From a virus, in the IMG/VR virus record IMGVR_UViG_3300021425_000104, positions 1 to 32,242 of that record: a DNA stretch of 32,242 nucleotides. One strand, given 5' to 3'. Position numbers and translations under genes: made by a program. Positions 453-29,292 of the stretch are shown here, piece by piece (positions within the stretch are counted from its first letter, which is position 1; each line of letters opens with the position of its first letter). Under the pieces are notes generated by a model, which ran no database searches, was not told where the DNA came from, and saw nothing but the letters and a program-made list of their open reading frames with translations.

Positions 453-703
453 GTGACGGTCTAAGCGGTGTGGGGTCAGCCCCATTCAACATTCAGTCAG
501 ATATCCATCAACAAACTCAAAGCCGTGAGAGAATAGAAGCACATCTTGCTGAACAGAGGGTAGCCAAAGAACATCGCGCAAATCACACACACCTAGAGTC
601 ACTTAGAGAGCAAAGACTAGATCTAGGAAAAGCCTACGACAGATTTGGAGCAAAGACTACTGCCGATAGACCACAGGGAACTAACATAAACATAGAAGTT
701 TAG
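449..703 (+). CDS. hypothetical small phage protein
   Basis: 84 residues, hydrophilic, rich in Gln, Arg, His and Glu, and predicted mostly helical between about residues 20 and 65. No membrane segment, signal peptide or family motif is recognised. Its ATG overlaps the stop of the upstream membrane-anchored gene, so the two are probably one transcript and may act together. Its stop codon TAG is part of the palindrome at 702-718, and the convergent terL gene ends only 13 bases further on. Function unknown. Confidence 0.65.
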   Translation: MSDGLSGVGSAPFNIQSDIHQQTQSRERIEAHLAEQRVAKEHRANHTHLESLREQRLDLGKAYDRFGAKTTADRPQGTNINIEV

Positions 704-718
704 TTCAATAGAACTTTT
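702..718. terminator. AGTTC-AATA-GAACT palindrome between convergent stops
   Basis: AGTTC at 702-706 and GAACT at 711-715 form a perfect inverted repeat with loop AATA, followed by TTT. It fills the space between two convergent genes and includes the stop codon of the plus-strand one and the start of the terL stop region. It can act as a weak bidirectional terminator. It is also one of 13 copies of a dispersed palindrome, so a protein-binding role is equally possible. Confidence 0.55.
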
Positions 719-2555: not shown

Positions 2556-2573
2556 AAAAGTTCAATAGCACTT
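2556..2573. promoter_or_regulatory. dispersed palindrome, variant AAAGTTC-AATA-GCACTT
   Basis: AAAAGTTC at 2556-2563, loop AATA, then GCACTT at 2568-2573. The right half differs from GAACTT by one base. It lies immediately downstream of the terS stop codon (2579-2581) on the minus strand, where it reads as a short hairpin followed by TTTT. Confidence 0.5.
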
Positions 2574-2578
2574 CTTTT

Positions 2579-3109
2579 TCACATGCCCAGCCGCTTCAGC
2601 CGTGCTTCAATATCAGCTTCGATCTCATCCGCGCTGCGCTCTGCTTTTTCTGTGGTTTCCACGCGGTCGATCCATAGCCCGCAGTTCTTTCCAAGCAGCT
2701 CCAAGGCCCGCACCCTTGCGCCATCCTGCACGTTCTGGTCCAGAGCAATATCTTGAAGCTGTTTCAAAACCAGATCCGTTCGAGAGAGGCCCAACACGCG
2801 CTGCTCTGCTTCTTTTTCCACAGCTAACTGCTCCAGCCTAGTTGAGACCTTGGGGTTCTCTGCCGCGAGCCTGTAGGCTTCTCTATGCACTGTAGCATCT
2901 GCCATGTTCTCCGCATCATACGCGGCTCTGTAGGCTTCTGAGAAGCTGCTGCCACCCATCACCGCCATGCAGAAAGCTTCCTGCTTGTCTGTCAGTTGAC
3001 TTACTCCAGCGGCAGGAGATCGCTTGCGGGTTTTCTTTGGTTCACTGGCAGCTACAACTGTGAGCTTTGGCTTGCCTTTTGACGTGCTGCTTGTCGGTTC
3101 TTTTTTCAT
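2579..3109 (-). CDS. terS: terminase small subunit (TerS)
   Basis: 176 residues. TerS proteins recognise the packaging site and load the large subunit on DNA. The first 35 residues are basic and probably disordered. Residues 36-100 (SQLTDKQEAFCMAVM then FSEAYRAAY) match the helix-turn-helix and helical region typical of phage small terminases, including the characteristic LT.KQ.AF and EAYRAAY elements. The C-terminal half is helical and acidic, as expected for the oligomerising and TerL-contacting region. The ATG at 3109 follows an AGAGGC site. Position directly upstream of terL on the same strand supports the call. The 5' end of the gene carries the first of three GACGTGCTGC-type repeats that continue into the upstream promoter region. 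Confidence 0.88.
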   Translation of the reverse strand: MKKEPTSSTSKGKPKLTVVAASEPKKTRKRSPAAGVSQLTDKQEAFCMAVMGGSSFSEAYRAAYDAENMADATVHREAYRLAAENPKVSTRLEQLAVEKEAEQRVLGLSRTDLVLKQLQDIALDQNVQDGARVRALELLGKNCGLWIDRVETTEKAERSADEIEADIEARLKRLGM

Positions 3110-3394: not shown

Positions 3395-3415
3395 AAAAGT
3401 TCTATTGCACTTTTT
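3395..3415. promoter_or_regulatory. dispersed palindrome, AAAAGTTC-TATT-GCACTTTTT
   Basis: AAAAGTTC (3395-3402), loop TATT, then GCACTTTTT (3407-3415), with one mismatch in the stem. It lies in non-coding DNA about 85 bases upstream of the distal terS promoter boxes, not next to any visible stop codon. That position is easier to explain as a binding site than as a terminator. Confidence 0.5.
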
Positions 3416-4785: not shown

Positions 4786-5451
4786 ATGGCAAAATCAGCA
4801 TTTCAAATCCAAGACGCAACCGTGAACCTGATCGGCAAAGCGGAGCAACAGATCGGCTCTCTGAAGGCCGATAACAAGGCAAACAACGAGGTTGCCAATG
4901 GTCACAAGATCGGGGCCTATTGCGAGCTTATCGCTGCGCTTGCGCCCGTCAAGTTGGTCAAGGGCAACCTGCCCCGCGCTGCGTCCAAACAAGTGCGGGA
5001 AGCGCTCGCTGTTGCTGGTCTGAAAGAGGCCACCATCAAGCGTTACATGGAGAACTCAGTTGGTGCGATACGGCACTTTGAGATCAGCGGCATGGCGAAT
5101 GCCACCGCCACCATGGTTGGTGAGTTCTTTGAGACCCACAATATCGACAGCGAGAACAAGCTGGCGAAGCTGGTCAAAGGTGAGGGCGGTAAGTCCAAAG
5201 CCCAGCGGCTGGCTGAGCAGGTTGTCGGCAAGTGGTCCACAAAGAAGGACGACAAGGGCAACGCGGTACAGGGTGACGTGTTCAAAGATGGCCTTGATGA
5301 CGCTGAGCTTGAGCAGTTCGAGGATATCATGCGGGAGCTTTTGGCTGCGCGTACTGCCTACCGCAATGCTGAAGCAGCTAAGGCTGCTGAGGCTGCTGCG
5401 TCTGAAGAGAACCAAGACGTGAATGCCGTGATGGCGCAGTTCGCTGCGTAA
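4786..5451 (+). CDS. hypothetical 221-residue helical protein
   Basis: ATG at 4786 preceded by GAAGGAAG. The protein is almost entirely helical. Residues 1-110 contain basic helices (LVKGNLPRAASKQVREALAV, then GLKEATIKRYMENS) that could contact nucleic acid, including a possible helix-turn-helix-like segment at about 65-100. The C-terminus (about 170-215) is acidic and Ala-rich with coiled-coil character. Base composition is GC-richer than the recombination genes further right. I do not recognise the family. Its size and position within the early block suggest an expressed early protein. The stop codon is part of the palindrome at 5450-5467. Confidence 0.75.
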   Translation: MAKSAFQIQDATVNLIGKAEQQIGSLKADNKANNEVANGHKIGAYCELIAALAPVKLVKGNLPRAASKQVREALAVAGLKEATIKRYMENSVGAIRHFEISGMANATATMVGEFFETHNIDSENKLAKLVKGEGGKSKAQRLAEQVVGKWSTKKDDKGNAVQGDVFKDGLDDAELEQFEDIMRELLAARTAYRNAEAAKAAEAAASEENQDVNAVMAQFAA

Positions 5452-5471
5452 AGTTCGTTTGAACTTTTTTT
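5450..5471 (+). terminator. AAAGTTC-GTTT-GAACTTT palindrome with T-tract
   Basis: A perfect seven-base-pair inverted repeat (5450-5456 and 5461-5467) with loop GTTT is followed by more T, giving seven T in a row (5465-5471). It starts within the stop codon of the upstream gene. Of all copies of this palindrome this is among the most terminator-like, though the stem is AT-rich and short. Confidence 0.6.
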
Positions 5472-5501
5472 GCGCCGCCCGTTGGTGGCGCAAGGATGGT
5501 T
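5470..5501 (+). promoter_or_regulatory. leader hairpin, copy 2, followed by GGATGGTT
   Basis: TTGCGCC (5470-5476) pairs with GGCGCAA (5487-5493) around a ten-base loop, then GGATGGTT (5494-5501) and the ribosome site. Compared with the copy at 3811-3843 the outer two pairs are exchanged (AA/TT versus TT/AA) while pairing is kept. Confidence 0.65.
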
Positions 5502-5518
5502 TAAAAGAGGAGTGAGTG

Positions 5519-5650
5519 ATGAATAAATGGACACCAGAAGAGATCATTGATTTCTATGATGCCAACCCTGACGTGACACTGCGTCAGCTTTCAGTCGTTA
5601 CAATGCGTAGCGTTTCAGAACTTAAAATGATTTTGATGGGGGGAAAGTAA
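5519..5650 (+). CDS. hypothetical 43-residue protein, possible HTH
   Basis: ATG at 5519 after a strong AGAGGAG. The peptide (WTPEEIIDFYDANPDVTLRQLS...) has two helices separated by a turn, with LRQLSVVTMRSVSELKMIL resembling a minimal helix-turn-helix. Short proteins with a TPEEI.DFY...P..TLRQL pattern are familiar to me from marine phages, without known function. Its stop overlaps the next ATG (TAATG), so the two genes are translationally coupled. The 16 bases GGAGTGAGTGATGAAT around the start are repeated exactly at the gene starting at 10580. Confidence 0.7.
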   Translation: MNKWTPEEIIDFYDANPDVTLRQLSVVTMRSVSELKMILMGGK

Positions 5651-6165
5651 TGCCTAAGTTTTTAGTTTTCAAAGCGCACCTGACAAAGGTGGATCGTGAC
5701 ATCGTAAACGGTGAGACCGTCAGACATGGCGGCTGGGGCGCAACCCCAAAGCTTGCAGCCTATGCGGCTGTTTCGCATTCTATCGGCGGCTTGTCTGACG
5801 CGGATTGCATTGAGAGAGAAGTGGATGTTTTAGCTGCAACAATCCACCGCGTTTATGTTCATGGCATCACAGCCATGGCTGACAGTGTTGAGCAGATGTT
5901 TGAGTATGACAACGCGCCATGGGGATGCGAGGCTGTTCAGCCAAGCTATCATGCCAAGGGTTTGCGTAGCCTGTCTGTCGGGGATCTGGTCATGGAAATC
6001 CCAGCGGGTGATGGCGAAGGGTTCTCGCACCCCAATGCTGAAACGACTTTGTACCTGTGTGCGAATGCAGGTTGGGCGAAGTTGTCTGATCGTGCGCGTC
6101 ATGCATTTATTGCAGACATGCCAACGCTGGAAAGAAAAGTGAACGCACTAGAGGAGGCTGCGTAA
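5650..6165 (+). CDS. hypothetical 171-residue protein
   Basis: ATG at 5650 overlaps the previous stop. The sequence looks like a mixed alpha/beta domain: an N-terminal strand (PKFLVFKAHLTKVD), a glycine-rich stretch (HGGWGATPKLAAYAAVSHSIGG), a central helix and a C-terminal segment with GDLVMEIP and TLYLCANAGWAKL. No recognised catalytic motif, signal peptide or membrane helix. It is GC-richer than many neighbours and lies in a chain of coupled early genes. Function unknown. Confidence 0.7.
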   Translation: MPKFLVFKAHLTKVDRDIVNGETVRHGGWGATPKLAAYAAVSHSIGGLSDADCIEREVDVLAATIHRVYVHGITAMADSVEQMFEYDNAPWGCEAVQPSYHAKGLRSLSVGDLVMEIPAGDGEGFSHPNAETTLYLCANAGWAKLSDRARHAFIADMPTLERKVNALEEAA

Positions 6166-6440: not shown

Positions 6441-6441
6441 T

Positions 6442-6800: not shown

Positions 6801-6988
6801 TGTACTGGGCAGTTTGGGAAGAGTGGGGCACCAACTATCGCAGATATGCGGAAGCTGAGACCCGCGAAGGGATTGATCAAAAGATCCTGACTAGAAGTGT
6901 GTACCCGCCTAAGCGTCACACTATTCAAATTTTTGTAAAGTCTGAGGAGACAACCAATGAAACTATCACAAGCACAAACCATCGTTGA
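6800..6988 (+). CDS. hypothetical 62-residue protein
   Basis: ATG at 6800 overlaps the stop of the small membrane protein (TGATG). The product begins MYWAVWEEWGTNYRRYAEAETREG and continues with a basic strand-like region (KRHTIQIFVKSEE). It overlaps the first 32 bases of the MoxR-like gene, whose own ribosome site TGAGGAG lies inside it. The sequence resembles small beta-rich phage proteins, with no function assigned. Confidence 0.55.
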   Translation: MYWAVWEEWGTNYRRYAEAETREGIDQKILTRSVYPPKRHTIQIFVKSEETTNETITSTNHR

Positions 6989-7994
6989 GAGTGCAATCAA
7001 CTTCAACATGGATCTATCCGATGGGCGTGATGCCCAATATATCGTGCCATATCCTGTTGGCGGCGCTGGCCTTGGTAAGACAACCATGATCAAGCAAGCC
7101 ACTGCCAACGTATCAGAGCAGCGCGGTGTTCCAATGGAATGCCGCATTATTTCGCTGGCGCAGTATGACCCGACAGAAATTGCGGGTTGGACAATCCCTT
7201 CAGAGGATCGCAGCCACATGGTGCGGATGCGTCCAGACTGGATGCCGACAGATGGCTATGGTGTCATCTTTTTGGATGAGCTACCGCAAGCCATCGTGGC
7301 GTGTCAGAACATTGCAGCGCAGATCACAAACGAGCGCCGTGTGGGGCCGCATCACTTGCCTGATGGCTGGGTTGTAGTTGCCGCTGGTAACCGCATGTCG
7401 GACCGCGCTGGCACAAACCAGATGCCTTCTCACTTGAAGGACCGCATGATGTTCTTGGAGATCGAAGCGGATCTTGATGACACGCTGGCATATTTCAACT
7501 CTGTGGGCGTTGACTTTCGCGTCAACTCCTTCCTGCGCTTTCGCCCTGAGTACCTGCACAAGTTCGACAGGGATGCCAATGCTTGCCCATCACCGCGTTC
7601 ATGGGAGCGTGTCAGTTCAATCTTGTCATGGGGTCTTGATCCTGTGTGCCAGCTTGAGGCTATCGCTGGACAGGTTGGTCGCGCAGCCGCTGCCGATTTC
7701 AATGGGTTCTTAAAGATCCATGAGACGTGCCCTGATATCGACGCGCTGATTGCAGATCCCATGGGGTCCGATATCGCAGACGATCCAGCCGTTGCCTACG
7801 CAATCACGGCAAACCTTGCGTTCCGCATGACAGACAAGAACGCGCATAACATCATCAAGTATTTGATGCGCTTGCCACAGAAAGAGTTCGCTGTGTTCTG
7901 TGTCAAGGATGCGCTGAGCCGCAACAAAGACCTCAAGAAGGTCAAAGCGGTTCGTGATTGGATCATGACAGAAGGTCGTCACATGATCCTGTAA
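6957..7994 (+). CDS. MoxR-like AAA+ ATPase
   Basis: 345 residues, a single AAA+ module. Walker A GGAGLGKTT is at residues 35-43, Walker B VIFLDE at 103-108, sensor 1 region VVVAAGNR at 139-146, and a likely arginine-finger region HLKDRM at 159-164. The C-terminal half is the helical lid. This matches MoxR/AAA_5 ATPases, which work with VWA-domain partners to remodel or activate protein targets. The partner is encoded just downstream (8274-9404), with one small gene between. Phage MoxR-VWA pairs are known but their targets are not. ATG at 6957 follows TGAGGAG. The stop codon leads straight into the palindrome at 7993-8014. Confidence 0.9.
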   Translation: MKLSQAQTIVESAINFNMDLSDGRDAQYIVPYPVGGAGLGKTTMIKQATANVSEQRGVPMECRIISLAQYDPTEIAGWTIPSEDRSHMVRMRPDWMPTDGYGVIFLDELPQAIVACQNIAAQITNERRVGPHHLPDGWVVVAAGNRMSDRAGTNQMPSHLKDRMMFLEIEADLDDTLAYFNSVGVDFRVNSFLRFRPEYLHKFDRDANACPSPRSWERVSSILSWGLDPVCQLEAIAGQVGRAAAADFNGFLKIHETCPDIDALIADPMGSDIADDPAVAYAITANLAFRMTDKNAHNIIKYLMRLPQKEFAVFCVKDALSRNKDLKKVKAVRDWIMTEGRHMIL

Positions 7995-8014
7995 AAGTTC
8001 AATAGAACTTTTTT
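7993..8014 (+). terminator. AAAAGTTC-AATA-GAACTTTT palindrome with T-tract
   Basis: A perfect eight-base-pair inverted repeat (7993-8000, 8005-8012), loop AATA, extended to six T. It begins inside the stop codon of the MoxR-like gene. It may end or attenuate the early transcript, or bind a regulator. Confidence 0.6.
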
Positions 8015-8034: not shown

Positions 8035-8075
8035 ACAACCAATTTTTGTAACCTTGAACTTCTTTGGAGAAGCCT

Positions 8076-8273: not shown

Positions 8274-9404
8274 ATGGATGAACAAACAAAAGTATCGCGC
8301 TCTATCACGCGCCTTGTGATATCGCACCCGTTCTTTGGGTCAATGGCCCTGAGCCTCAAGATTGAGGCTGATGAAGACATCCCAACCATGTGCACCGATG
8401 GCAAGTTCATCAAGTGGAACCCTGATTTTGTGGCGAACATGTCAGAAGAGGAAACCACTGGGGTGATGGCGCATGAGGTCATGCATGTTGGCATGAAGCA
8501 CAACCTGCGGCGCGGTGATCGTGACCCAGAGCGCTGGAACATTGCGTGTGACTATGTGATCAACCCTATCCTGATTGAGGCTGGGTTCTCGCTTCCCGCT
8601 GGTGGCCTGTATGACGAACAGTATGCAGACCTTCCCGCTGAGCGTGTCTATGACATGCTGCCAGAGGACGTGTCGCACCTGTCACAGGCTGGTGGCATGG
8701 GCGGGGTGATGGACACCACCAAAGAGGGTGGACAGGCACTGTCTGAGGCTGAGGTTAAGCAGATGGAAGCCGACATCAATTCCAAGGTCATGATGGCTGC
8801 GAATGGTGCCAAGTCTGTTGGCAAGCTGCCAGCATCTATTGAGGCCTTGGTGCAGCGCATGAAGCGCAACCAGATTGACTGGGAAGAGAAGGTGCAGCGT
8901 TTCATGGGTGGTGATCAGCCTGATGACTACTCAATGCGCCGCCCTAATCGTAAGATGTTCGATCAGGTTGGGGTGCTTGGCCCCAGCATCGTGGGCACTG
9001 GTTGCGGTGACGTTCTTGTGTGGATGGACAGTAGCGGATCTGTGGCTGATCGTGAAAGTGAGTTCTTCTTGGGTGGGCTGAATGCAATCAGCCGTGACGT
9101 GAAGCCCAAGTCAATCACAGTGATCACATGTGATGCTGAGATCCAGAGCGTCAAGCGTTATGAAGAGGGCGAAGAGATCACCCTGTTCAGCAACAAAGGT
9201 CGGGGCGGTACATGTGTGCAGCCTGTGTTCAACTACATTGAGAAGCACAATCTCAATGTGGATAACATGATCTGCTTCACCGACATGGGGATCTTTGACT
9301 ACCCAGATCGTGCGCCAGACTACCCAATCTTGTGGGTGTCTTCATATTCTCGCGGCAAACCTGCACCGTTTGGCGAGACAGTTTACCTAAACACAGGAGA
9401 TTGA
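8274..9404 (+). CDS. metallopeptidase-like plus VWA-domain protein (DUF2201-type)
   Basis: 376 residues in two parts. The N-terminal part has HEVMH at 67-71 in the context VMAHEVMHVGMKHN, followed by RWNIACDYVIN at 88-98. This is the zincin-like signature of the putative metallopeptidase domain found with DUF2201/VWA-like proteins. The C-terminal part has a VWA-like MIDAS start WMDSSGS (Asp252) and later FTDMGIFD. Proteins of this build are partners of MoxR ATPases, here encoded just upstream. The linker at about 140-190 is Met- and Glu-rich. Both HExxH and DxSGS are intact, so metal binding is likely. The substrate is unknown; it could be a host complex remodelled during infection. ATG at 8274 follows GAGGAG. 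Confidence 0.88.
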   Translation: MDEQTKVSRSITRLVISHPFFGSMALSLKIEADEDIPTMCTDGKFIKWNPDFVANMSEEETTGVMAHEVMHVGMKHNLRRGDRDPERWNIACDYVINPILIEAGFSLPAGGLYDEQYADLPAERVYDMLPEDVSHLSQAGGMGGVMDTTKEGGQALSEAEVKQMEADINSKVMMAANGAKSVGKLPASIEALVQRMKRNQIDWEEKVQRFMGGDQPDDYSMRRPNRKMFDQVGVLGPSIVGTGCGDVLVWMDSSGSVADRESEFFLGGLNAISRDVKPKSITVITCDAEIQSVKRYEEGEEITLFSNKGRGGTCVQPVFNYIEKHNLNVDNMICFTDMGIFDYPDRAPDYPILWVSSYSRGKPAPFGETVYLNTGD

Positions 9405-9645: not shown

Positions 9646-10096
9646 ACTTTGCTTGGCACTGGCAGTGTACCATGAGGCCAGAGGCGAACCCCTGATAGGG
9701 CAGAAGGCTGTCGCTGAGGTGGTGATGAACCGTGTTGCATCAGATAGGTTCCCAGACACGATATGCGAGGTCGTGATGCAGCCTAAACAGTTTTCGTTTG
9801 TCAGTCCTAATGGATGGGCTGGCATACCCACAGACCCAGATGTATGGGCTGACGCTGTGAACATATCTCAAGACGCGATAGGCAATCATCTTGATGGTCA
9901 ATCATATTTTGCCAACAAGGCAATGCTGTATTATCATTCTACTGAGGTCAGCTTAGTGTGGACTAAAAGTTTATTTGAACTTTTTACCTTGGGGAACCAC
10001 ACGTTTTACTCTGACCCTCTGACAAAAACCAGCAAGCCAAGGGAGAGACCTGTTGGAGATACAATTAGAAAGGATGATGGAGTTGGCAAAGGATGA
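9635..10096 (+). CDS. SleB-type cell-wall hydrolase (Hydrolase_2), probable endolysin
   Basis: 153 residues. The opening CLALAVYHEARGEP (Glu14) and GQKAVAEVVMNRV, then FPDTICEVVMQPKQFSF, are the hallmark blocks of the SleB/CwlJ cell-wall hydrolase family, which cleaves peptidoglycan glycan strands. Glu14 is the likely catalytic acid. There is no signal peptide or membrane segment, so export would need a holin; the 38-residue membrane proteins at 4031 and 6684 are candidates. ATG at 9635 has GAGGGGAG upstream. The C-terminal 50 residues are basic and low in predicted structure. The gene overlaps the next by 44 bases. One dispersed palindrome lies inside the coding sequence. Confidence 0.87.
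   Translation: MLAELCLALAVYHEARGEPLIGQKAVAEVVMNRVASDRFPDTICEVVMQPKQFSFVSPNGWAGIPTDPDVWADAVNISQDAIGNHLDGQSYFANKAMLYYHSTEVSLVWTKSLFELFTLGNHTFYSDPLTKTSKPRERPVGDTIRKDDGVGKG
9965..9984. promoter_or_regulatory. dispersed palindrome inside SleB gene
   Basis: AAAAGTTT (9965-9972), loop ATTT, then GAACTTTT (9977-9984), one mismatch in an eight-base-pair stem. It encodes part of KSLFELF in frame. Confidence 0.4.
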
Positions 10097-15652: not shown

Positions 15653-16396
15653 ATGGCTAAGAAAACTGTATGGGAAACACTCAGAAGTATTGATGTGTCT
15701 GAGTATACCAAAAAGAAAAACGGCATGACCTATCTATCATGGGCACATGCTTGGGGTGCATTGAAAGATGTTTATCCAGATGCCACGTTTGAAAAGCATG
15801 TCGAGGAAGGAAACATTCCCTACATGATTGACGTTCATGGGTTCGCTTATGTGCGTGTTACCGTAACTGCCAGCGGAGAAAGTGCTACTGAACTTTTTCC
15901 TGTACTGGATTATAAGAACTCGCCAATTAAAAACCCTAATGCTTTTCAGATCAACACTGCCCATCAACGTGCAATGACGAAGGCCATGGGCTATCTGGGT
16001 CTGGGTCATTACATCTATGCGGGTGAAGACTTGCCGCCAGATGATGGCGCAGAGCCTCAGACGCAAGCCTCTGTGGTCAAAGTTGACCGTGAATTTCAAG
16101 AGGATAAAGGGAAAAAGCCAAAGGCTAAGCCAACTTCACCGCCGCCCTCAGCAACTGAGGCGTCATCAGGTGACGTGAAGAAGAATGCGTCTGAGGAAAA
16201 CTGGGATAAGACCAAGGATCTAATCTCTGAAGTTGTTAAGGCTTCATCGGATATAGAATGGTTGAATGGTGTGTATCGAAAGAACCTTGGTCCAATCAAT
16301 CAACTCAAGGACAACAGTCCAAAGTTGTATGAAGAGTTAATGAATGACTTTTCAAAACGTAAATCTGAACTCAATTCAAAAGGAGATCAATCATGA
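15653..16396 (+). CDS. DUF1071-like single-strand annealing protein
   Basis: 247 residues. The N-terminal domain (WETLRSIDVSEYTKKKNG, MTYLSWAHAWGALKDVYP, then AFQINTAHQRAMTKAMGYLG and GLGHYIYAGEDLP) matches the DUF1071 group of phage annealing proteins, related in role to Redbeta and ERF. They pair complementary single strands made by an exonuclease such as the one encoded upstream. Residues 125-175 form a Lys/Pro/Ser-rich linker, and the last 70 are helical. The ATG is two bases past the XRE stop with GGGGG upstream. The gene overlaps the SSB-like gene by four bases. A dispersed palindrome lies inside it. Confidence 0.85.
   Translation: MAKKTVWETLRSIDVSEYTKKKNGMTYLSWAHAWGALKDVYPDATFEKHVEEGNIPYMIDVHGFAYVRVTVTASGESATELFPVLDYKNSPIKNPNAFQINTAHQRAMTKAMGYLGLGHYIYAGEDLPPDDGAEPQTQASVVKVDREFQEDKGKKPKAKPTSPPPSATEASSGDVKKNASEENWDKTKDLISEVVKASSDIEWLNGVYRKNLGPINQLKDNSPKLYEELMNDFSKRKSELNSKGDQS
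15879..15898. promoter_or_regulatory. dispersed palindrome inside annealing-protein gene
   Basis: AAAGTGC (15879-15885), loop TACT, GAACTTTTT (15890-15898). It is the GTGC half-site variant, with one mismatch in the stem, and encodes ESATELF in frame. Confidence 0.4.
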
Positions 16397-17351: not shown

Positions 17352-18212
17352 ATGAACCTTAACTTGTATAGGAAAGCAACCAAAGATGTCAGAAGAAACT
17401 TGGTTTCCAGTGAACCAAAGGCTGACATTGTTTTAATAGATCCAGACTTCGCACAGGAACTTCTGAAGCGAAACACCATGAACAGGAAGATATCTCAAGT
17501 TCATGTGAAAAGCATTACGCATGATATGGAAAATTCAGACTTTGATTTTAATGGTGATGCAATAAGGATATCAAAAGATGGTGTTCTTCTGGACGGTCAG
17601 CAAAGACTAACTTCCATAATAAACTCAAACAAAACAATTCCAACTGTATTTGTTAGAGGTTTAGAAAAGGAGGCAATGGACACTATTGACAGTGGAAGAA
17701 AGAGAAAGCACTCAGATAGGCTTGCTATAAGAGGCGTATCTAACGCAAGTGCTGTGTCTGCTGTGCTATCAAACCTAGTTAGATTGGGTAAAAGGTATGA
17801 GGGATGGGGAGTAATAACTCACAAGCAACTAGACAATGTTTTAGAATTGCATCCAAGGGTTATTGATAGTGTTTCTTTCACCAGAAAGGCATTCAGAAAT
17901 ATAGAAAATATCTTAGCAGCCATACATTACATTGGTGTTTATAATAACGATGAAGAAACCGCTAATGCTTTTGTGCAGGTGTTTCGTGATGGTCAGTCTA
18001 CATATGAAGGTGACGCGGCTGTGTTTGCAAGAAATCATTTGATTGATGATATGGGCAAGCAAAATCCATCATTAAGAATGGGGTCAAAGTACAGGGCAAA
18101 GTTTGTTGTTCAGATGTATAATAAATTTGCTGCAAGAAAATCTGTTACAACTTCCCGCATACCTGCAACCTTTGAAGTCATTGGCTGGGATACAGATGCG
18201 CTTGGAGTATAA
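17352..18212 (+). CDS. ParB/Srx-fold protein
   Basis: 286 residues; ATG at 17352 after TAGGAAAG. The N-terminal 105 residues have the ParB/Srx pattern: ISQVHVKSITHDM, then GDAIRISKDGVLLDGQQRLTSI with DGQQR at 81-85, then IPTVFVRGL. A MDTIDSGRKRKHSDRL block follows, as in many phage and bacterial proteins of this group. The rest is helical. Related domains bind DNA, cut it, or hydrolyse nucleotides, so the activity cannot be named. The sequence is AT-rich compared with the early genes, like the rest of this operon. Its stop codon lies in the palindrome at 18210-18227, and a terminator follows. Confidence 0.78.
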   Translation: MNLNLYRKATKDVRRNLVSSEPKADIVLIDPDFAQELLKRNTMNRKISQVHVKSITHDMENSDFDFNGDAIRISKDGVLLDGQQRLTSIINSNKTIPTVFVRGLEKEAMDTIDSGRKRKHSDRLAIRGVSNASAVSAVLSNLVRLGKRYEGWGVITHKQLDNVLELHPRVIDSVSFTRKAFRNIENILAAIHYIGVYNNDEETANAFVQVFRDGQSTYEGDAAVFARNHLIDDMGKQNPSLRMGSKYRAKFVVQMYNKFAARKSVTTSRIPATFEVIGWDTDALGV

Positions 18213-18227
18213 GTTCTATTGCACTTA
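18210..18227 (+). promoter_or_regulatory. dispersed palindrome TAAGTTC-TATT-GCACTTA
   Basis: TAAGTTC (18210-18216), loop TATT, GCACTTA (18221-18227), one mismatch. It begins at the first base of the ParB-like stop codon. A full terminator lies only 64 bases downstream, so a separate terminator here would be redundant. Confidence 0.5.
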
Positions 18228-21300: not shown

Positions 21301-24300
21301 GGTGGGCTTTTAGCCATGCGGTTATCGAACCACTCCAAAACCAAGTTGCCTCCTGACGGGTACGCTACAACGCTCTCACCGTCCTGATAGCCTTGGCTCT
21401 TCCATCTGTGCAGTGTGTCGTAGATGGCTTTCTCTACTCGCTTGTACCCTGAGTTCTCTACAAGCTCCTTGTCGTGCAGTCTTTGCTGTATGTGATAGAG
21501 GCCACCACCGTTATCAAACTGGTCATTGCTTCCTTCAGTAAGAAGGACAGGGATAACCTCACCATCAGTCTCCTGTATACCGCCATATATAATGTCAGTC
21601 AGAGTGCCAGTTCGTTTGACTGGAGTTCTGATTGCTTTGTATGGATCAATGGGTATTTGAGAAAGCTTCTGTGGTGGAAGTTCATTTGAACTTTCTACAC
21701 CTTCCATCGTTGACAGATCTACGTCTGCCTCTGTGATGAATGGCGCTGCCTCTAGTGCTAGTTCTCTAGGGGCGAAGAAGTCTCCCTCTGCAATCGTTGG
21801 CTTAACTGCATCAACGCTTCCGCTACCCGATCCATCTCCTTCTCGTTGAGAGATGACACCAGCGAGTCTTCCTCGCTCTGTTGCGGGGAGTGAATTTTTG
21901 ATTTTGTCATCGCCTATACCTTTGTTTTTCAGGATGTTCAGGGCACCGTCAGCGTAATCGTTGTCATCACCACGGCCCTTACGGACACCACCAGCTTCAA
22001 ACAAACGCTTCTCAGCGTACCACATAAGGGCTTGGAAGTCAGCATTAGTTATATCAACACCAGCTTCATCCTTGAGGATCTGCCTTGCACGATTGGCAAC
22101 CTCACGCATTGCAGTTCTGTCCTGTGCGCTGCGAGGATCTTCTTGTAGTGTTGGGATCAGCTTCTTCTGATATGTTTCAGCGGCCCTCAGAAAGTCTGTC
22201 TTTGACGGACGTGATGCAGCAGCAAGTTCCTTTACTGTTGCGGCGTCTCGACCAACAGGAGTTTTACTCTTGTTAAGACTGAACTCATACTGTCCAGATG
22301 TAAGTAAATCCTCAACAGTATCTTTGTATGCCTTGGTGTAATAATCTTTATTCCAGATCTTACCAATCACAGGAGCTATCAGAGGTATGTCTGTCTTATC
22401 CATTGTGGATATGTTCAGTTTTCTTTGAGCTTCAAACAGAATGTTTCTATCCATGTCTGTCAGGGGCTGGTCTACTTCAGTAATAAAGTTCCAAACCTTA
22501 TCAAGGTTCTGCTCTATCAGCTCGTCTGCATATTTTACTGTGGGGTTACCAGTGATGCGGTTGGCAAAGCGCATCCACCACCTGTCCATGGTTAGAGGAT
22601 CGTAATTACCTCTAAGGTTTTGGTAGAAGCCGTTGCCAATCTTTGGACCTAGTATATACGCCACAGACACCATTGTATCTGCCTCTTCAGCCCCACTTGC
22701 TTGGAACTCTTTGGGCAAATCTTTAACTCTATTAGCCCCAAGGACATTGAGCATTGTTGTGTTAAGGTCTTTCTTTGGCATCTGCATGGTTAGCAAAGCC
22801 TCAATGTCATTTGATGACATGCCCTTACGGCTCAGTGTATTCCAGAACTCAAAGGCAGATAGCATAGACCCACCTTGAGCGCCTGATCCTTTGACTGGGA
22901 ATGTGCCATCATCACTAGCTTTCCAAGCGTCATACTGCTCAGATGCAAACCTGTAGTTGTCTATAACTGACAAACCGTTTGATGTGATGGCAGTTGCAAA
23001 ATCAAAGGCGTGTTCTGCTGCTGGATCATACTCAGAGTTTGGAGAACCGTCAGGCCTCTCCGGTGAGACCTCTGGATATACAGGAAATAAAATACGCTTA
23101 GCCAGTTTTAGTGTGGAGTCATACCAACCAAGAGCATCACTGCCAGATATTAATGCTGCCTCAGCTTCAGCCGCCATGATCCTTGCTGCGTCTTGCTTGT
23201 CACGCTCTGAATTTATTATGTCCAAAGGCGGCACGTTACGCAGGCCAAGAAGTTTCTCAGCAAAGCTAACTAATGTCTCTGAGCCTTCTTTCTTTTTAAA
23301 TTGAGGCTGTCCTGTTTTTGGATTAAGGTAATCAAGTATACTCGCATCACGTTGGGCTGGTGTCAGTGGCACCATTGATCTCTTAATGCCAAGAGCCTCA
23401 GTGTCTATGTCACCAAAGGTTGACTCTATCTGATCTGATATGATAGATGTCTCAGTAGAAGGAGTTATGTCAATGGCAGAAGAAGCTTTTGCTCTAGTGG
23501 AAGACGGAACTTCCCGTGCAGTAATATTTAAATCAGATGGCACATCATCAGTACGAACACTGGATGGATCCATCAAACCAGTGGGCAGTCTGGTTGGAGA
23601 AGAGATACCAACCGCAGATGATCTACGGGCATTCCGCGCAGCTTCCAGCATGGAACTCTCTGCGCTTCTCCAAGAAGACTCAGCTTCCTGACGGGAGATA
23701 CCTGTCCGATCTAGGGCAGCTTGGAAAGCAGCATCATAATTACGATAGCTCTTTGCGATAGATGCAAAGTATTCTGCCTGTTGATCCTGTAGTTCCTGTT
23801 GAGTTTTGTTTCTCCACTCTTCAAAGATCAGGTGGCCCCGTGCTTTCTTCTCCGCCTCAAGCTCTCTTAGTGGCAGATACCATTCAACCAACTGACCGTT
23901 AGGCATACGAATATCAAACGCAATGATGCGCCATCCCCATTCCTTTGGCTCAAACAATTTGTTTGTGTCGATCTTAACTAGGCTTATGCCTTCCTTGAGA
24001 AGCTCATCGAAGATAGCTGGAACGTCTCTGAAGTCATCAATAACAGTCTTGAACCTGTAAGAATCACGGATGTGTGATGCGTCATGCCAAGGCTTGTTCG
24101 CCAAGATAGATGGTCTGCTCGCCTTCTGAGTTACCTTTGACAAGTCTTTGATGTTGTCACCTGACTTGGTGCCAAACTTCTCATCAATCCTTTTGATAAG
24201 ACGTTTAACAAGAGGCACATTCTCTTTCGTTAGCTTTTCTATCTCTGCCCGTATCTGGTCATTGGGGGCATTGGTGTTGATAGGCATCCTGATGTTCTCA

Positions 24301-26771
24301 GGCGCAACACTATCCTCCTCAACAACTGCATCAATAGGTATAGCTGACTGCTTCGCAGTAGTTACTTCTGTGCGTGATGTCGGGGTCTGTGTGACTGTGG
24401 TTACAGGAGCGCGATCAGCAACACTGCCAGCACCAATCCCACTGAATATAGCACCAACATTATTAAAGCCATTGTCAACATGTGCCCCTACTATGGACCT
24501 AAAGAAATCACCTATCCGCTTGAACAAAGGTCTGGATGTTCCAACATTTTTTAATCTGCCAGCAGTGTAGTCACGATACATCTCTGCAATCGCTTCCTCT
24601 TCAACAGCAGATAGCCTACCCTTGTCTCCCTTCCGACCGACAAGCTCACCGTTAAGCCTACCAGCGCGGTCCAAGTAAGAGTAAGATCTCTTCTTTCCTT
24701 CTGGATTTACAAACTTTGTTTTCTTGGCAGCTTTCTTTAGAAGGTTTATTTCCTTGGGCGTGAAGACATTCATGTCCACAAGTGCATGAACTGCCTCATG
24801 GTTCATCACCTCAGCAACGCTGTTAGTGTAGTCAGCGTCAGACAGTGAGGGATCGTATACACCAAGAGCCAAGGTAATTGCCTTCTCCTCGCTCATTGGA
24901 TCGAACTGACCTTCAACCAAACTATCTTGACTGCCAATAACCTTCTGGCCCTTGAGGCCAACACGCTTGAGACCCATCTTATCCAGACGTTCTCTGAGGT
25001 TATTCATCACAGCCTCTTCACGCTGTGTATACTCAGGCTTCTTCTCGACTTGCTCTTTGCTAAGGCCATCGAAGATGGTTCTGGTTTCGCCTCTCTTCTC
25101 AGCCGCCTGAAGCTGTGGGCCTATCTCTGCCTTCAACTGCTCAGGAGTAACTTTACCGGGTACTGATTCGATTTTCTCAGAAGCTTGAACTTTATAGTCA
25201 TCTGGTAAAGTAACCAACTTCTGTTGGTTCGATTCGAGCCTTGCGTTTAATTTGTTCAATTGAACTTTTTTACTATCAAGAGCCGCCTGAACCTCTTCAG
25301 CCTTTACTGCATTACCCCGTGTATCTTTGCCTGTCTGGGTTGCGTATCTTAAATCCAACTCAAGTTGCGGAATATCCTTGGCAATTTTGTTTGCCTTAAC
25401 AACAACATTTGCGCTGTCACGTCTGATATTATCCAGCACTTTCTCTGCCATCTTCGTGGGTGGAGTGACAGTATATCTATCAGTCTTTGCACGTTGGCTC
25501 TTGGATATCACGCCCTGTGTTGTAAGGGAGTCTCTCGCTTGCTTGATTAGGCTGTCTGTTTGTTTCTGAGTTTCACCTGAGAGGCCAGCTTTTTGCAGGG
25601 CAATCCTAGCCTTGGGGAACTTTAGCTCACCCTCAACACGCATAGATGAAAGCACTATATCAGCAGCACGATTAACAACTTGATCTTCTGGAGTGGCTGT
25701 TGGCGCGGGTAATGCCAACTGAACCTGTGGCTCAGGGGCCGCAATGATATCATCAACTTCTTTGGCTTCTTGCTGTATTTGATCCAAGCCATATGCAAGC
25801 TTTGTTCTGGCTACTTCCTTTAGTTTAGTGATGTCTTCATCAAGCTGTCTTTTGCCAGCGTCAGGGGATACAGCCCCGCCAACGGTGCCAATGCCACCGC
25901 CCAAGATGCCAGCAGCAATACCAGCATCAATGTATTCTTGTATCGCATCATCGCTATCAATAGGCAGACCTGCCTGTGCCCGTTCAATAAGTTGTTGTGT
26001 GATCTCTGTTGGAACTTCTGTTGCAACGCCAACGCCAGCACCCTTTGCCGACCTAGCCCACAGGCTACCAGCCCCAGCCCTTAACGGCGTAAAGGCTAAT
26101 ATCTTACCAGCAATACCCTCAATAGCTGCCTGTCCACCAGCAGCAATAAGGGCTTTCTCTACATTAACAGCATCAAGCTCACCAGCCTCAACCTGTTCTT
26201 CTTGCCTTTGGACATTGCCGCCAAATAGAAGTGGGAAAGATGCAGCCGCACCACCAATAACAGTACCAGTGGCAGTGCCTAAAGGTCCAAAGAACGAACC
26301 GATTGCAGCGCCAGTCCCTGCACCAGCCAGAGTTGTTCCCAGAATAGGGGCCTGTTCACCAGCCAACTCACCAGCGAATGACAGTGCGCTGCCAACACCT
26401 TCAACATCTTGACGTGTTGTTCTTATTTCTTCTTCCATCAAGGCTTGCAGATCAGCCTGTGACTTCTCTTCTAGCTCACGACCAAACTGCTCAACGCCTT
26501 CAAGGCCAGTGCCAGCCCCTGCATATTCTAGAGCGGTGCCCGCCAATGATTGTATTTGCTCTATGCCACGACGAAAGCCACGGCCTATGGCGGTGCTATC
26601 CTCATCGGTTGGCTCAGGTGTAGGGGCAGCAGCAGCAACAGGTGCTTGTTGACGCTTCGATAGAAGGAAGTCGTTTATCTGTTGCTGTTCATTCTCAGTG
26701 GGTTCTGTTCCAGAGATATTTACTGAGTAGTCAATTCCTGTCTGAGGATCTTTGACAAATATTACAGACAT
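18321..26771 (-). CDS. giant polyvalent virion protein (2816 residues)
   Basis: One open frame over a quarter of the window. ATG at 26771 follows GAGGAAA. Segments by eye: short strand-rich head (1-25); Gly/Ala-rich hydrophobic stretches (about 142-190 and 280-305); helix-turn-helix-like region (365-440); coiled coil (450-530); a zincin-like NHEAVHALVD (HExxH at 658-662); a RelA/SpoT-like segment (about 860-1000, with IRDS near 901 and NGQLVEW near 960); a motif LTMDRWWMR near 1393; a BECR-nuclease-like segment (about 1715-1860, GGGLYHIQQR to YYVKTFFPV); and an LPD38-like C-terminal region (about 2270-2560, NPEFFISNFIRD and FLNSLYLFYNASLQG). This is the build of phage polyvalent proteins thought to enter the host with DNA. 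As last gene of the structural run it is in the place of T7 gp16. Domain limits are approximate. Confidence 0.85.
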   Translation of the reverse strand: MSVIFVKDPQTGIDYSVNISGTEPTENEQQQINDFLLSKRQQAPVAAAAPTPEPTDEDSTAIGRGFRRGIEQIQSLAGTALEYAGAGTGLEGVEQFGRELEEKSQADLQALMEEEIRTTRQDVEGVGSALSFAGELAGEQAPILGTTLAGAGTGAAIGSFFGPLGTATGTVIGGAAASFPLLFGGNVQRQEEQVEAGELDAVNVEKALIAAGGQAAIEGIAGKILAFTPLRAGAGSLWARSAKGAGVGVATEVPTEITQQLIERAQAGLPIDSDDAIQEYIDAGIAAGILGGGIGTVGGAVSPDAGKRQLDEDITKLKEVARTKLAYGLDQIQQEAKEVDDIIAAPEPQVQLALPAPTATPEDQVVNRAADIVLSSMRVEGELKFPKARIALQKAGLSGETQKQTDSLIKQARDSLTTQGVISKSQRAKTDRYTVTPPTKMAEKVLDNIRRDSANVVVKANKIAKDIPQLELDLRYATQTGKDTRGNAVKAEEVQAALDSKKVQLNKLNARLESNQQKLVTLPDDYKVQASEKIESVPGKVTPEQLKAEIGPQLQAAEKRGETRTIFDGLSKEQVEKKPEYTQREEAVMNNLRERLDKMGLKRVGLKGQKVIGSQDSLVEGQFDPMSEEKAITLALGVYDPSLSDADYTNSVAEVMNHEAVHALVDMNVFTPKEINLLKKAAKKTKFVNPEGKKRSYSYLDRAGRLNGELVGRKGDKGRLSAVEEEAIAEMYRDYTAGRLKNVGTSRPLFKRIGDFFRSIVGAHVDNGFNNVGAIFSGIGAGSVADRAPVTTVTQTPTSRTEVTTAKQSAIPIDAVVEEDSVAPENIRMPINTNAPNDQIRAEIEKLTKENVPLVKRLIKRIDEKFGTKSGDNIKDLSKVTQKASRPSILANKPWHDASHIRDSYRFKTVIDDFRDVPAIFDELLKEGISLVKIDTNKLFEPKEWGWRIIAFDIRMPNGQLVEWYLPLRELEAEKKARGHLIFEEWRNKTQQELQDQQAEYFASIAKSYRNYDAAFQAALDRTGISRQEAESSWRSAESSMLEAARNARRSSAVGISSPTRLPTGLMDPSSVRTDDVPSDLNITAREVPSSTRAKASSAIDITPSTETSIISDQIESTFGDIDTEALGIKRSMVPLTPAQRDASILDYLNPKTGQPQFKKKEGSETLVSFAEKLLGLRNVPPLDIINSERDKQDAARIMAAEAEAALISGSDALGWYDSTLKLAKRILFPVYPEVSPERPDGSPNSEYDPAAEHAFDFATAITSNGLSVIDNYRFASEQYDAWKASDDGTFPVKGSGAQGGSMLSAFEFWNTLSRKGMSSNDIEALLTMQMPKKDLNTTMLNVLGANRVKDLPKEFQASGAEEADTMVSVAYILGPKIGNGFYQNLRGNYDPLTMDRWWMRFANRITGNPTVKYADELIEQNLDKVWNFITEVDQPLTDMDRNILFEAQRKLNISTMDKTDIPLIAPVIGKIWNKDYYTKAYKDTVEDLLTSGQYEFSLNKSKTPVGRDAATVKELAAASRPSKTDFLRAAETYQKKLIPTLQEDPRSAQDRTAMREVANRARQILKDEAGVDITNADFQALMWYAEKRLFEAGGVRKGRGDDNDYADGALNILKNKGIGDDKIKNSLPATERGRLAGVISQREGDGSGSGSVDAVKPTIAEGDFFAPRELALEAAPFITEADVDLSTMEGVESSNELPPQKLSQIPIDPYKAIRTPVKRTGTLTDIIYGGIQETDGEVIPVLLTEGSNDQFDNGGGLYHIQQRLHDKELVENSGYKRVEKAIYDTLHRWKSQGYQDGESVVAYPSGGNLVLEWFDNRMAKSPPLRLVLERGKRNSGKGPYYVKTFFPVMDKKDRKKIRNSQIKLSALNTVSGTGLDAMQADRVTRYTDIADWVGKALRLVPFTDKTKAQKRADLFIQKAQDSFIPVGRMIKELKEINPQYKIADSMDPYLKQQLSEGIAGSKITERKETIYKAATDAVKNMNITEQQVEQLKALSNANSGGGKGLAEFTFEGTKSKALSAVDTYLYAKHAKERNAYIRTVDPTNDAGSGMTDAEADAILNWFDSLDPQNKIALRQAEDAVRAIVDDTNAVRVAAGLQSSDMNIGDMEDSNFDFYVPLKGHFEVDQEGVYGSGKPARYGAMGREDQRALGRRSYGRDILASTILQNTNSIVRGERNKVGKSMLDLVRSNPQGMSGYAEILDQPPSARVMQNGAVVIKPTRTYRDDPSIAIVKEDGKEKVLQFYDNNLAGAFNGENIWDAGNAAAITRGLAKVNRYLSNINTSWNPEFFISNFIRDVQAAGIQVSEFEMDGLRKDTIRNVLKAAKGLKRSILNKDDSSDWAKKYKEFRAYGGASAANPMTTLQDQISDLQSTLSDISDASGKLGLMKAKGKKLLEFMDNSNLVVENAIRVSTYDALVSRGVTKERAAQAARSVTVDFGKGGDNKAFLNSLYLFYNASLQGSFFLLRSLARSKKVRNIMGGVIAVGFTQDIINSMMSDEDEDGVKQYDKIPDYILEHNMVFMLPDVVDPFGRGYVSIPMPYGMNAFHNVGRNFAKMAQGRSDPSEIGASIGRTTLEIFNPLGGTESFLNFAAPTVFDPFISLYGTNTDFSGRDIVKKAFPNQVASQSSLYWNNTSPTAVGITQALNELTGGTETLSGWIDWSPNSLEFWFDYITGGAGRFVQRTAEAPARIAAAESAEDIATEIPFMRRVLRSVSSRDDVSQYIEVRDQVNRATAEYKKAAQRGDVDRINSAISRFEAELRIAPQIRKIESARRKISQQITAVNDSRLPQDEKDRIVKQLVEQRKMITRQGILIAQGI
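21677..21695. promoter_or_regulatory. dispersed palindrome inside giant gene (1)
   Basis: GAAGTTC (21677-21683), loop ATTT, GAACTTTC (21688-21695). The inner six base pairs (AAGTTC/GAACTT) are perfect. It encodes ESSNEL on the minus strand. Confidence 0.4.
25254..25271. promoter_or_regulatory. dispersed palindrome inside giant gene (2)
   Basis: GTTC (25254-25257), loop AATT, GAAC (25262-25265) then a T-run. The left flank is TTT instead of AAA, so this is a partial copy. It encodes KVQLNK on the minus strand. Confidence 0.3.
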
Positions 26772-26793
26772 AGTATTTCCTCATTGATCAAGA

Positions 26794-29292
26794 CTACGGA
26801 TTAACTGTTTGTACGTTGGCTAACTGCGGGTATGCCATACCCTTGTACTTATTTATTTCGCTTTCCAAAAGCCTTGCTTGGGCTGCTTTCTCTGCCAATT
26901 GCTCTGGAGTGAATGGTGTTACCTGACCAAAATCTCCCAGTGTACCTTCTCTAGCAATATCTGCTTTTAGTTTGATTAATTCTTCACGCAAATCACCAGC
27001 TTCTCTGAGCAAGCCAACTCTCTCTGTTCCTGTCATTGTCTTTGGTCTATTGGCTTTAGCTAAAGCTGCCTCTCTGGAAAGACGTGAGCTTCTTGCCTTC
27101 TCTTCTAGGCCCATCAGGCCAAGGATATCCGCATCGTATTGGCTCTTAGCCTTCCTCAATGCGCCTACGCCAGCAAGACCAGCTTCACCTATGGCACCAC
27201 CAAGTGTTGGGTTCTTAGATGCCATCAATGCCAGACCAGCTTGTGCCAAAGCCATGTACTTGTCTGTCTCTCTATCCTTCTCTCTGTCTGAAAGCATCTG
27301 CGCTATGCGAGCTTCCAAACCTGTAGCTGCACCACCAGTGGGAACAATGCCACCACCGCCGCCACCACCACCAGCGTCATCTGATACTAACTTGCTTACA
27401 TCTCCAAACGAAAGCGCGTTGCTTGCTGTATCACCCGCAGTGCCCAATGTGAAACCATCTGGGATAGATGCAATGCCCTGAGATAATGTTGAATCAATAC
27501 CCTCTGGCTCTGTGGCAAAGGCTGTTGGTGTTAGTCGTGTGGGCTGTACAGCATCCTGTTCTTTTGACTGTGGTATAGGTAGACTTTCTACAGCCCTACC
27601 TACAAGATCTCCAAGGCCACTGCCTTGAAGAGTTTCGCCAACAATGCTTGGGGTCTCAAGGCCACTAATGTCGAGAGAGGCTGGGACAAAAGGACTGTCT
27701 GGGTCTACAAGACCAGTATCTGGATCCACTCCCCTAGTGCCGATTGGCATCATGCCTACAGGAGACTTTGTGAAGTCTGCGCCTTGCTTCTGAGCAACAT
27801 CTATTGCTTGCATGGCCTCGCCGCCACTAACCCCAACCAGCTTTCCACCAGCAACTTTAAACATATTGCCAGCATCGTTTACCAAATACTCTGTGCCGCC
27901 ACTGACTACTGGGCTAAGGCCTAGCTCTGATATGCCTCTTTGACGGGCAGCTTCATCTGCCGCTTGGGCTTGTTCTAAATCTGGGAAGAAACCACTTGCT
28001 GTTGTTTCTGGTCCAGTAACATCAGGCATTCTGTATGTGTCATCAGTAACAGGCTGAGATAAAACATCTACAGGCAGAGATCCACCCGGCCTACCGCCCC
28101 TCATCTCTTGACTTTTAAAGAATGCTTCCAGACCTTTTTGTCTTTCTAAATCTTCTCTTGCTATTTGATCTGGAGTTTTGGGTGGCAGTAAGTTCTTTGA
28201 TATATCATCATAGAAATCTTCGCTCTCATCCATATAATCCTTGCCACCAAGGTAGCCTCTGAGTTGAGTTTCAGGATTATCTACTCCCGCAAATTCAGCA
28301 AGTGGAGAATCAGGTGGAATGTTCATATTGTTAAAGAGTAGCCGCTCTTCAGCCTTATCCGCTGGAGTCATTGGCTTTCCAAATGTTCGCTTGTTAAAGC
28401 TCTCTATTGCGTCTCTATTTTCGTACTGTCCAGTCAAATCAAGATCAACAGTTGGGCTTACATCACTAATACTTGGCCCAGATAAATTAGGTCTCTGCTC
28501 TTGTTGATCTCTAATAGCTCTGGCAAGCTCTTGTTGTTGCGTAAATTCAGTGGCGAGCCGTGCCTTCTCCATCTCTGACAACGCTGTTGGCTGAGTAGCA
28601 GCGGTAAGTGTAGCAGGTCTCTCCCCACCCATGCCAAGACTAGGCGGTACTGCTGGACGAGTGTCTGTAACTTCCATTGAAGCAGGGCTAAACGGTCTAG
28701 CTGAACTTAACGTGGAATCAAGAGTTGGGCGCTCTGGAGCGGCTTCTTGTAACACTTCTGATCCTAAAGGTGTGGCGCTCTCTTGTCTTTCTGGCCCTAC
28801 GTTTGCTTGACCTCTGACAACCCCCAGAACTCTAGGATCTGTAACAGATTCTCTGCTGCCATCAGGGTTTTCAACATAAACTTCTCCATCTGGAAATGCA
28901 TAGAACCTAGCATTACCTACCTTAACAAGCTTACCACCCTCGCGCAGCTTCATAATTCCACCCTCAGCCATGCGCTGTGGTGCCCGTGTCGCTGCCGCTG
29001 GCATCATCTCATTCATACCAGTGTTTTGTGCAATAGAACTTTTTGGAGCCATAGCTCTGGCAGCATCAGCAATACCACCTTGTGGCATACCCGCAGCCAT
29101 CACTACCTCTTCAGCTACAGTGGGCATATCTTGTGCCTCTCTGCGCTTGAACTCATCACGCATACGCTGACGCCGCTTTAGCTCCGCTGTGATAAACACA
29201 GGCGGTGCCATCCCTGTGGGCATTTGCATTTCTTTTACTAGAGCCTGATCAGGTAGGTCTTTAAGGGCTTCAGTCTGCTCTAAGATGTTCAT
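26794..29292 (-). CDS. large structural/internal virion protein (832 residues)
   Basis: The start (MNILEQTEALKDLPDQAL, then MPTGMAPPVFITAELKRRQRMRDEF) looks like a conserved N-terminus I associate with marine phage structural proteins, followed by MAEGGIMKLREGG. The central 400 residues are Pro/Gly/Ser-rich with little predicted structure. A Gly-rich linker (eight Gly around residue 650) leads into a helical C-terminal region: KYMALAQAGLALMASKNPTLG, which includes a hydrophobic patch, then LAGVGALRKAKSQYDADILG and a coiled coil. It overlaps the upstream gene by four bases (ATGA) and precedes the giant gene by 22 bases, so all three are one operon. By position it corresponds to T7 gp15. A virion location is inferred. 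Confidence 0.78.
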   Translation of the reverse strand: MNILEQTEALKDLPDQALVKEMQMPTGMAPPVFITAELKRRQRMRDEFKRREAQDMPTVAEEVVMAAGMPQGGIADAARAMAPKSSIAQNTGMNEMMPAAATRAPQRMAEGGIMKLREGGKLVKVGNARFYAFPDGEVYVENPDGSRESVTDPRVLGVVRGQANVGPERQESATPLGSEVLQEAAPERPTLDSTLSSARPFSPASMEVTDTRPAVPPSLGMGGERPATLTAATQPTALSEMEKARLATEFTQQQELARAIRDQQEQRPNLSGPSISDVSPTVDLDLTGQYENRDAIESFNKRTFGKPMTPADKAEERLLFNNMNIPPDSPLAEFAGVDNPETQLRGYLGGKDYMDESEDFYDDISKNLLPPKTPDQIAREDLERQKGLEAFFKSQEMRGGRPGGSLPVDVLSQPVTDDTYRMPDVTGPETTASGFFPDLEQAQAADEAARQRGISELGLSPVVSGGTEYLVNDAGNMFKVAGGKLVGVSGGEAMQAIDVAQKQGADFTKSPVGMMPIGTRGVDPDTGLVDPDSPFVPASLDISGLETPSIVGETLQGSGLGDLVGRAVESLPIPQSKEQDAVQPTRLTPTAFATEPEGIDSTLSQGIASIPDGFTLGTAGDTASNALSFGDVSKLVSDDAGGGGGGGGIVPTGGAATGLEARIAQMLSDREKDRETDKYMALAQAGLALMASKNPTLGGAIGEAGLAGVGALRKAKSQYDADILGLMGLEEKARSSRLSREAALAKANRPKTMTGTERVGLLREAGDLREELIKLKADIAREGTLGDFGQVTPFTPEQLAEKAAQARLLESEINKYKGMAYPQLANVQTVNP
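29028..29044. promoter_or_regulatory. dispersed palindrome inside 832-residue protein gene
   Basis: GTGC (29028-29031), loop AATA, GAACTTTTT (29036-29044). It shares the 16 bases GTGCAATAGAACTTTT with the reverse complement of the copies at 3395 (all but the outer flank) and the core of 18210. It encodes KSSIAQ on the minus strand. Confidence 0.42.

Follow-up and report, generated by a model that had tools for sequence, protein, structure and literature searches.

Palindromes of the form AAAGTTC-N4-GAACTTT are dispersed over a 32,242-base viral record from IMG/VR (the window), which covers roughly half of a ~60-kb genome from a group of uncultivated marine phages, and they are selected duplex-DNA sites rather than RNA hairpins. 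We propose, with a probability of about 0.5, that these sites are genome-wide operators for a phage-encoded protein, for which the early protein gp4786, acting through its helix 81-97, is the strongest candidate, and that the bound protein would form stoperator-like roadblocks or anchors.

The large terminase encoded in the window is 50-59% identical to those of 023Pt_psg01, DSL-LC04 and the Pelagibacter phages HTVC023P and HTVC027P. Neither the palindromes nor the early block (gp4786, ATPase, VWA, primase, RusA and the gene at 14360) was present in the 50-kb stretch read of each of these four phages. Phages like HTVC023P and HTVC027P have terL in common with the group of the window but lack both gp4786 and the array. 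A relative of 62,279 bases (G007) has overlapping ends and is nearly complete. Genes were called as simple longest open reading frames and their start positions are approximate; because this procedure affects starts only, the stop-codon statistics given below are untouched. Three gene labels were assigned by eye, without a profile match: Cas4-like (14360), RusA-like (13908) and ParB-like (17352).

Scanning the window with up to three mismatches gave 14 matches to the palindrome where 1.69 were expected, and none of 100 dinucleotide shuffles of the window reached this count. An earlier sequence-only reading had described 13 dispersed copies as a non-random set, and 12 of the 13 are among these matches. 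A weight matrix built on relatives identified 14 strong sites in the window (Table 1), consisting of all 13 listed copies and one that had been missed, at 12500-12517. The strong sites score 20-28 bits and fit W3-GT[T/G]C-N4-GAAC-W3. By comparison, the looser matches at 10145-10162, with a score of 8.6 bits, and at 11990-12007 are probably due to chance. The start positions given earlier needed small corrections; the first copy occupies 700-717 (not starting at 702) and the last 29025-29042 (not 29028). The remaining descriptive claims held: the spacer is four bases in all 13 copies, a GCAC/GTGC variant is found in five of them as well as in the new copy at 12500, and five copies (700, 5450, 7994, 10551 and 18210) lie at stop codons. 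The site immediately beyond terS is also found in most relatives with the same site type (type A, below), and several type A and type B relatives have a site within ~45 nt of the end of the AAA ATPase gene.

Table 1. Predicted operator copies in the window, with the candidate reader gene and its neighbours
Feature	Sequence	Position	Strand	Context
Predicted operator	TTAGTTCAATAGAACTTT	700..717		Stop of gene 449-703; 25.8 bits; pattern scan and weight matrix
Predicted operator	AAAGTTCAATAGCACTTC	2557..2574		Immediately beyond terS 3' end (terS 2579-3109, minus)
Predicted operator	AAAGTTCTATTGCACTTT	3396..3413		Between terS and early genes
Predicted operator	AAAGTTCGTTTGAACTTT	5450..5467		Overlaps gp4786 stop codon
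Predicted operator	AAAGTTCAATAGAACTTT	7994..8011		AAA ATPase gene stop codon
Predicted operator	AAAGTTTATTTGAACTTT	9966..9983		Within SleB-like gene, 70 nt upstream of winged-helix ORF
Predicted operator	AAAGTTCAAATGAACTAA	10551..10568		Stop of gene 10351-10551
Predicted operator	AAAGTGCGATTGAACAAA	12500..12517		Within primase-helicase gene, FVQSHF codons; 20.6 bits
Predicted operator	AAAGTTCAATAGAACAAA	14574..14591		Within gene 14360-15268 (Cas4-like by eye)
Predicted operator	AAAGTGCTACTGAACTTT	15879..15896		Within Sak single-strand annealing gene
Predicted operator	TAAGTTCTATTGCACTTA	18210..18227		Stop of gene 17352-18212, convergent junction
Predicted operator	GAAGTTCATTTGAACTTT	21677..21694		Within 2816-aa gene
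Predicted operator	TTTGTTCAATTGAACTTT	25251..25268		Within 2816-aa gene
Predicted operator	TTTGTGCAATAGAACTTT	29025..29042		Within 832-aa gene; four mismatches to full pattern; 21.3 bits (weight matrix)
gp4786		4786..5451	+	221-aa uncharacterised early protein, best reader candidate; homologue in every site type
AAA ATPase (phrog_1297)		6957..7994	+	gp4786 neighbourhood in types A, B and C
DUF2201 metallopeptidase-like + VWA-like protein		8274..9404	+	Conserved partner of ATPase

Shuffle controls and conservation in relatives had been named beforehand as tests of the set. When these tests were run, the counts lay far above those in shuffles, and the sites were conserved in close relatives (98-99% identity). 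Relatives of ~60 kb carry ~20 copies per genome, a 20- to 40-fold enrichment corresponding to about one site per 2-3.5 kb, and most of 160 related loci have 1.5-6 sites per 10 kb compared with 0.09 expected. The enrichment holds for most relatives down to ~65% primase identity. One phage contig of the group (NYWV01000005.1, 62.5 kb, 68% primase identity) is tentatively associated with a Porticoccaceae metagenome-assembled genome (MAG), the only MAG containing a relative, and may point to a host; it contains 23 type A matches, or 21 once its end overlap is removed.

Placement was analysed for 203 sites called in 11 type A and 3 type B records. Sixty-one sites lie at -5 to +40 nt from a stop codon, where 11.6 were expected. 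A site is present at 40% of convergent junctions, whereas the share is 13% for tandem and 12% for divergent junctions; this distribution disfavours a role as promoter operators. Within genes, site density rises from 0.105 per kb in genes shorter than 600 bp to 0.267 per kb in genes longer than 3 kb. The sites are also evenly spaced: the coefficient of variation of the spacing was 0.33-0.63 in 10 of the 11 type A records, the remaining one (G014) being not clearly even, whereas random placement gives ~0.9. Evenness is less clear in the three type B records (p = 0.03, 0.13 and 0.78; G011 and G016 are not clearly even) and borderline in the type C and MAG records (p = 0.06-0.08). As a separate observation, the 2816-aa protein (gene 18321-26771), whose gene contains two of the copies, is conserved in its C-terminal part but diverges rapidly in its N-terminal part.

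Pairing between the two arms was examined in 284 non-redundant type A sites, with shuffled right-hand letters as the control. There was no covariation in the stem, every variable pair being at or below the shuffled expectation; for example, pair 1-18 was formed in 0.40 of the sites compared with 0.52 after shuffling, and pair 6-13 in 0.69 compared with 0.73. In many sites the two flanks are both TTT or both AAA, which leaves the outer triplets unpaired. A T-to-G change in one arm, which would be a mismatch in any hairpin, occurs in a third of the sites (53 + 34), whereas only one site carries it in both arms. Information falls to background about two bases beyond the 18-bp core, indicating a site of ~20 bp of duplex DNA. 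The idea that the palindromes are bidirectional intrinsic terminators would account for the A-tract ahead of and the T-tract behind several copies and for the preference for gene ends and convergent junctions. However, this explanation is very improbable given the unpaired outer triplets and core mismatches, the copies within essential genes on both strands, and the separate standard terminator at 18290. Pairing at or below chance, the one-arm G variant and the absence of a T-tract at copy 10551 rule out an RNA hairpin or intrinsic terminator as the main role, in agreement with the earlier view that simple termination does not account for copies that lack a T-tract or are next to a full terminator.

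The copy at 12500 is present in 34 of 44 type A primases. Among 24 non-redundant type A primases, synonymous diversity at the FVQSHF codons was 0.12 compared with a gene mean of 0.50. The only windows with clearly lower synonymous diversity were at residues 573-581, close to the end of the gene, where the low value probably reflects the few sequences that extend there. At the same position in type B primases the codons vary and other residues occur (FVREHF, FVKEHF). Thus the synonymous codons are nearly frozen in type A and free in type B, indicating that this copy is under selection at the DNA level. Moreover, the His/Asn alternation in the type A FVQS(H/N)F peptide (CAC/AAC) corresponds to the permitted G/T variant of the site. 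Judging from these alignments, the peptide looks constrained by the overlapping DNA site, being nearly fixed in type A and freed in type B.

The relatives fall into three site types with a common overall geometry. The type A consensus consists of W3-4, GTKC, an AATT-like centre, GMAC and W3-4. Type B records (17 in the data set) are exemplified by G010, G011 and G016, which contain no type A sites and 7-11 dispersed copies of TTTGTAC-N4-GTACAAA. Type C is represented by two contigs (G020 and G027) with 13 and 14 copies of AAAGTT-N6-AACTTT, compared with 0.3 and 0.6 in shuffles; the type C contig was recovered by a type B profile search, even though poor peptide patterns limited that search. 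Phages L359-L360 and L368-L370 bear type C sites, and in L359-L360 several copies lie directly ahead of a likely ribosome-binding site (AGGAG). A TGGTCC-N4-GGACCA palindrome found in G007 and G008 was rejected as a further type, as its seven copies are clustered in one repetitive gene. In a primase tree rooted on type C, type B forms one clade (support 100/99) nested beside its sister, a type A clade (L071-L083). In the tree of the 14360 gene the same type A clade also groups with type B, although type B as a single clade is less supported. Hence type B is derived, and type A is not merely a phylogenetic label. Such a pattern is consistent with two changes in the specificity of a sequence-specific reader.

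In the search for the reader, we compared seven widespread proteins found in types A, B and at least one type C record, counting the columns that are conserved in type A but in neither of the other two types. gp4786 had the most such columns (13 of 221); the other proteins had fewer per residue (terS, 8/176; 14360 gene, 9/302; primase, 7/595; VWA, 6/376; RusA, 2/126; ATPase, 1/345), and as types B and C are one clade each, the correlation between reader and site type amounts to two switch events. Three of the 13 columns (82, 86 and 89) share one face of the putative recognition helix, residues 81-97 (EATIKRYMENSVGAIRH). The changes on this face include R86K/E89K in type B and R86Y/E89R in type C. 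The type A form of the helix is roughly [ED]AxxK[RK][YL]x[ED]N, with a few rows deviating, whereas that of type B is roughly [ED][GS]MAxK[ML]xKN and that of type C roughly SQAKY[YF]YRH. The type A clade that is sister to type B has RDAVAKKYIEN, which is the A form.

In the AlphaFold model of gp4786, helix 81-97 directly follows helix 64-76, with a mean confidence of ~90 or more, and we read this arrangement as a putative helix-turn-helix. No relatives of gp4786 were found in PDB, Pfam or PHROGs, tblastn found no homologue in annotated phage records, and a Foldseek search with the model gave no PDB match at E<0.001, its sole close fold match being an uncharacterised phage protein. From the type-specific columns and the model we infer that gp4786 binds the palindromes. 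In types A, B and C, the genes for gp4786, the AAA ATPase and the DUF2201/VWA protein share a neighbourhood (4786-9404 in the window). The label of the VWA protein differs between databases, PHROGs giving 'HNH endonuclease' and Pfam a metallopeptidase-like domain.

TerS also differs between site types, and the sites could be packaging or DNA-maturation signals read by the small terminase subunit. In favour of this idea, every type encodes TerS, its family binds DNA, it has the eight type-specific columns noted above, and a site immediately follows its gene in most type A relatives. Against this idea, ~20 evenly spaced sites at gene ends are ill-suited to a single packaging start, and positions 56 and 75 of TerS are identical in types B and C despite their different sites, making TerS an improbable reader. 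A host nucleoid or regulatory protein is scarcely more probable. The site type tracks the phage clade and could equally track the host group, but the Porticoccaceae MAG was not enriched outside the phage contig tentatively associated with it: it has 16 matches in total, those on contig C14 being phage, compared with 15 for a control pattern.

The sequence-only reading had named an XRE protein (15243-15650) and a winged-helix protein (10053-10382) as candidate readers. Neither proposal survived, as blast finds both proteins only in the closest relatives of the window, whereas sites are present in relatives with 60-70% identity. Consistent with this result, an HTH_3 profile search detected no XRE domain in nine site-bearing records (G004, G005, G007, G008, G009, G012, G014, G015 and G018). 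Among near-identical relatives, helix 2 of the XRE protein differs (QRDMAREIGI or KQTDMAKQLGI) while the palindromes are unchanged. It follows that immunity stoperators of the L5 type, read by either protein, are a highly unlikely explanation; the sites are indeed dispersed and at gene ends and the XRE domain is real, but most site-bearing relatives have neither protein. Furthermore, searches of the phage records, several of which are fragments, detected neither a tyrosine integrase nor a serine resolvase nor ParA, arguing against an immunity role. An AlpA-like protein (16628-16906) is widespread in types A and B but was not favoured, since its recognition helix varies strongly within type A while the site is constant. 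gp10577 was rejected because blast did not find it in type C genomes and it is poorly conserved within type A. The ParB-like protein (17352-18212) was also set aside; with no ParA, no Pfam match and no counterpart in several site-bearing genomes, there is no sign that the array belongs to a ParB/parS system. This protein has a DGQQRL motif and is 36-37% identical in two very close relatives (G001 and G003) compared with 95% in a third (G017), suggesting that its gene is being exchanged.

In the mechanism that we favour, a sequence-specific protein encoded by the phage, most likely gp4786 through helix 81-97, would recognise each operator of ~20 bp as a pair of half-sites. The bound protein would form roadblocks or anchors, located as far as possible at gene ends but also within genes that are long. 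Its likeliest action would be a stoperator-like holding back or segmenting of transcription elongation in a phage without visible lysogeny genes. Site placement is compatible with such a block, and the bias towards gene ends and convergent junctions is in keeping with proteins that impede or terminate transcription, or that are barred from promoters. Genome organisation is an equally good fit to the even spacing and to the recurrent copies in long, essential genes. As a sequence-specific genome organiser, probably the same protein, bound to the same sites, might instead bridge, compact, segregate or mark phage DNA. This is a possibility to which we give less weight, although it would explain the spacing, the higher internal density in long genes, the symmetric and unoriented sites, and the presence of sites in both structural and early regions; a long C-terminal helix in the gp4786 model could dimerise or bridge. 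Conversely, the gene-end and convergent preference is more easily explained through transcription, even though avoidance of promoters would also produce it. On balance the roadblock function is slightly ahead, and binding would presumably block elongation rather than only organise the DNA.

Stoperators of cluster A mycobacteriophages such as L5 and Bxb1 number 20-30 genome-wide, with many between genes, and each group has its own site consensus matched to its own protein (PMC6550527). The analogy with L5 that was drawn at the outset is apt in that the palindromes are a non-random, gene-end set of likely protein sites, with tens of near-identical sites per genome in L5-type phages compared with 14 in the window and ~20 per 60-kb relative. 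It fails in other respects. L5 stoperators are 13-bp, asymmetric, bound by monomers and oriented with transcription (PMC6550527, PMC9283540), whereas the sites described here are two-fold symmetric, often within long genes and evenly spaced. In addition, L5 is temperate, whereas we found no lysogeny genes and identified no homologue of the L5 repressor, the XRE candidate for an immunity repressor being absent from most site-bearing relatives.

The Streptomyces phage phiC31 likewise has multiple sites dispersed over its genome. Its repressor sites are inverted repeats, as here, but phiC31 is temperate with a known repressor, and to our knowledge neither its site sequence nor its repressor is related to those described here. 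Numbers of 18-30 dispersed repressor sites are cited for phiC31 and L5 (PMC4557955). Our search of the literature on dispersed phage palindromes turned up temperate systems only. The lytic phages T1, Stevie and TLS have 16-20 intergenic repeats that were likened to stoperators (PMC4319613, PMC11447400). Unlike the present sites, which are symmetric and lie partly inside genes, those repeats are asymmetric and oriented and lie mostly between genes. They have no proposed reader, whereas the array described here has a candidate reader and shows specificity switches.

Dispersed arrays of binding sites are best understood in temperate phages, and neither a role nor a reader has been assigned to the repeats of T1, Stevie and TLS. 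Should gp4786 prove to be the reader, it would add a DNA-binding family for which no structural relative was found in PDB. More tentatively, gp4786 may be the first member of a new family of phage proteins that bind DNA sequence-specifically, docking at ~20 evenly spaced sites in each genome of lytic marine phages. Together with the AAA ATPase and VWA protein encoded nearby, such proteins would organise or segment the phage chromosome, and their specificity would have changed at least twice via one helix face. With three natural specificity types, matching changes in a candidate reader, and sites fixed in essential genes, the group allows both the protein-DNA code and the function of the array to be tested directly.
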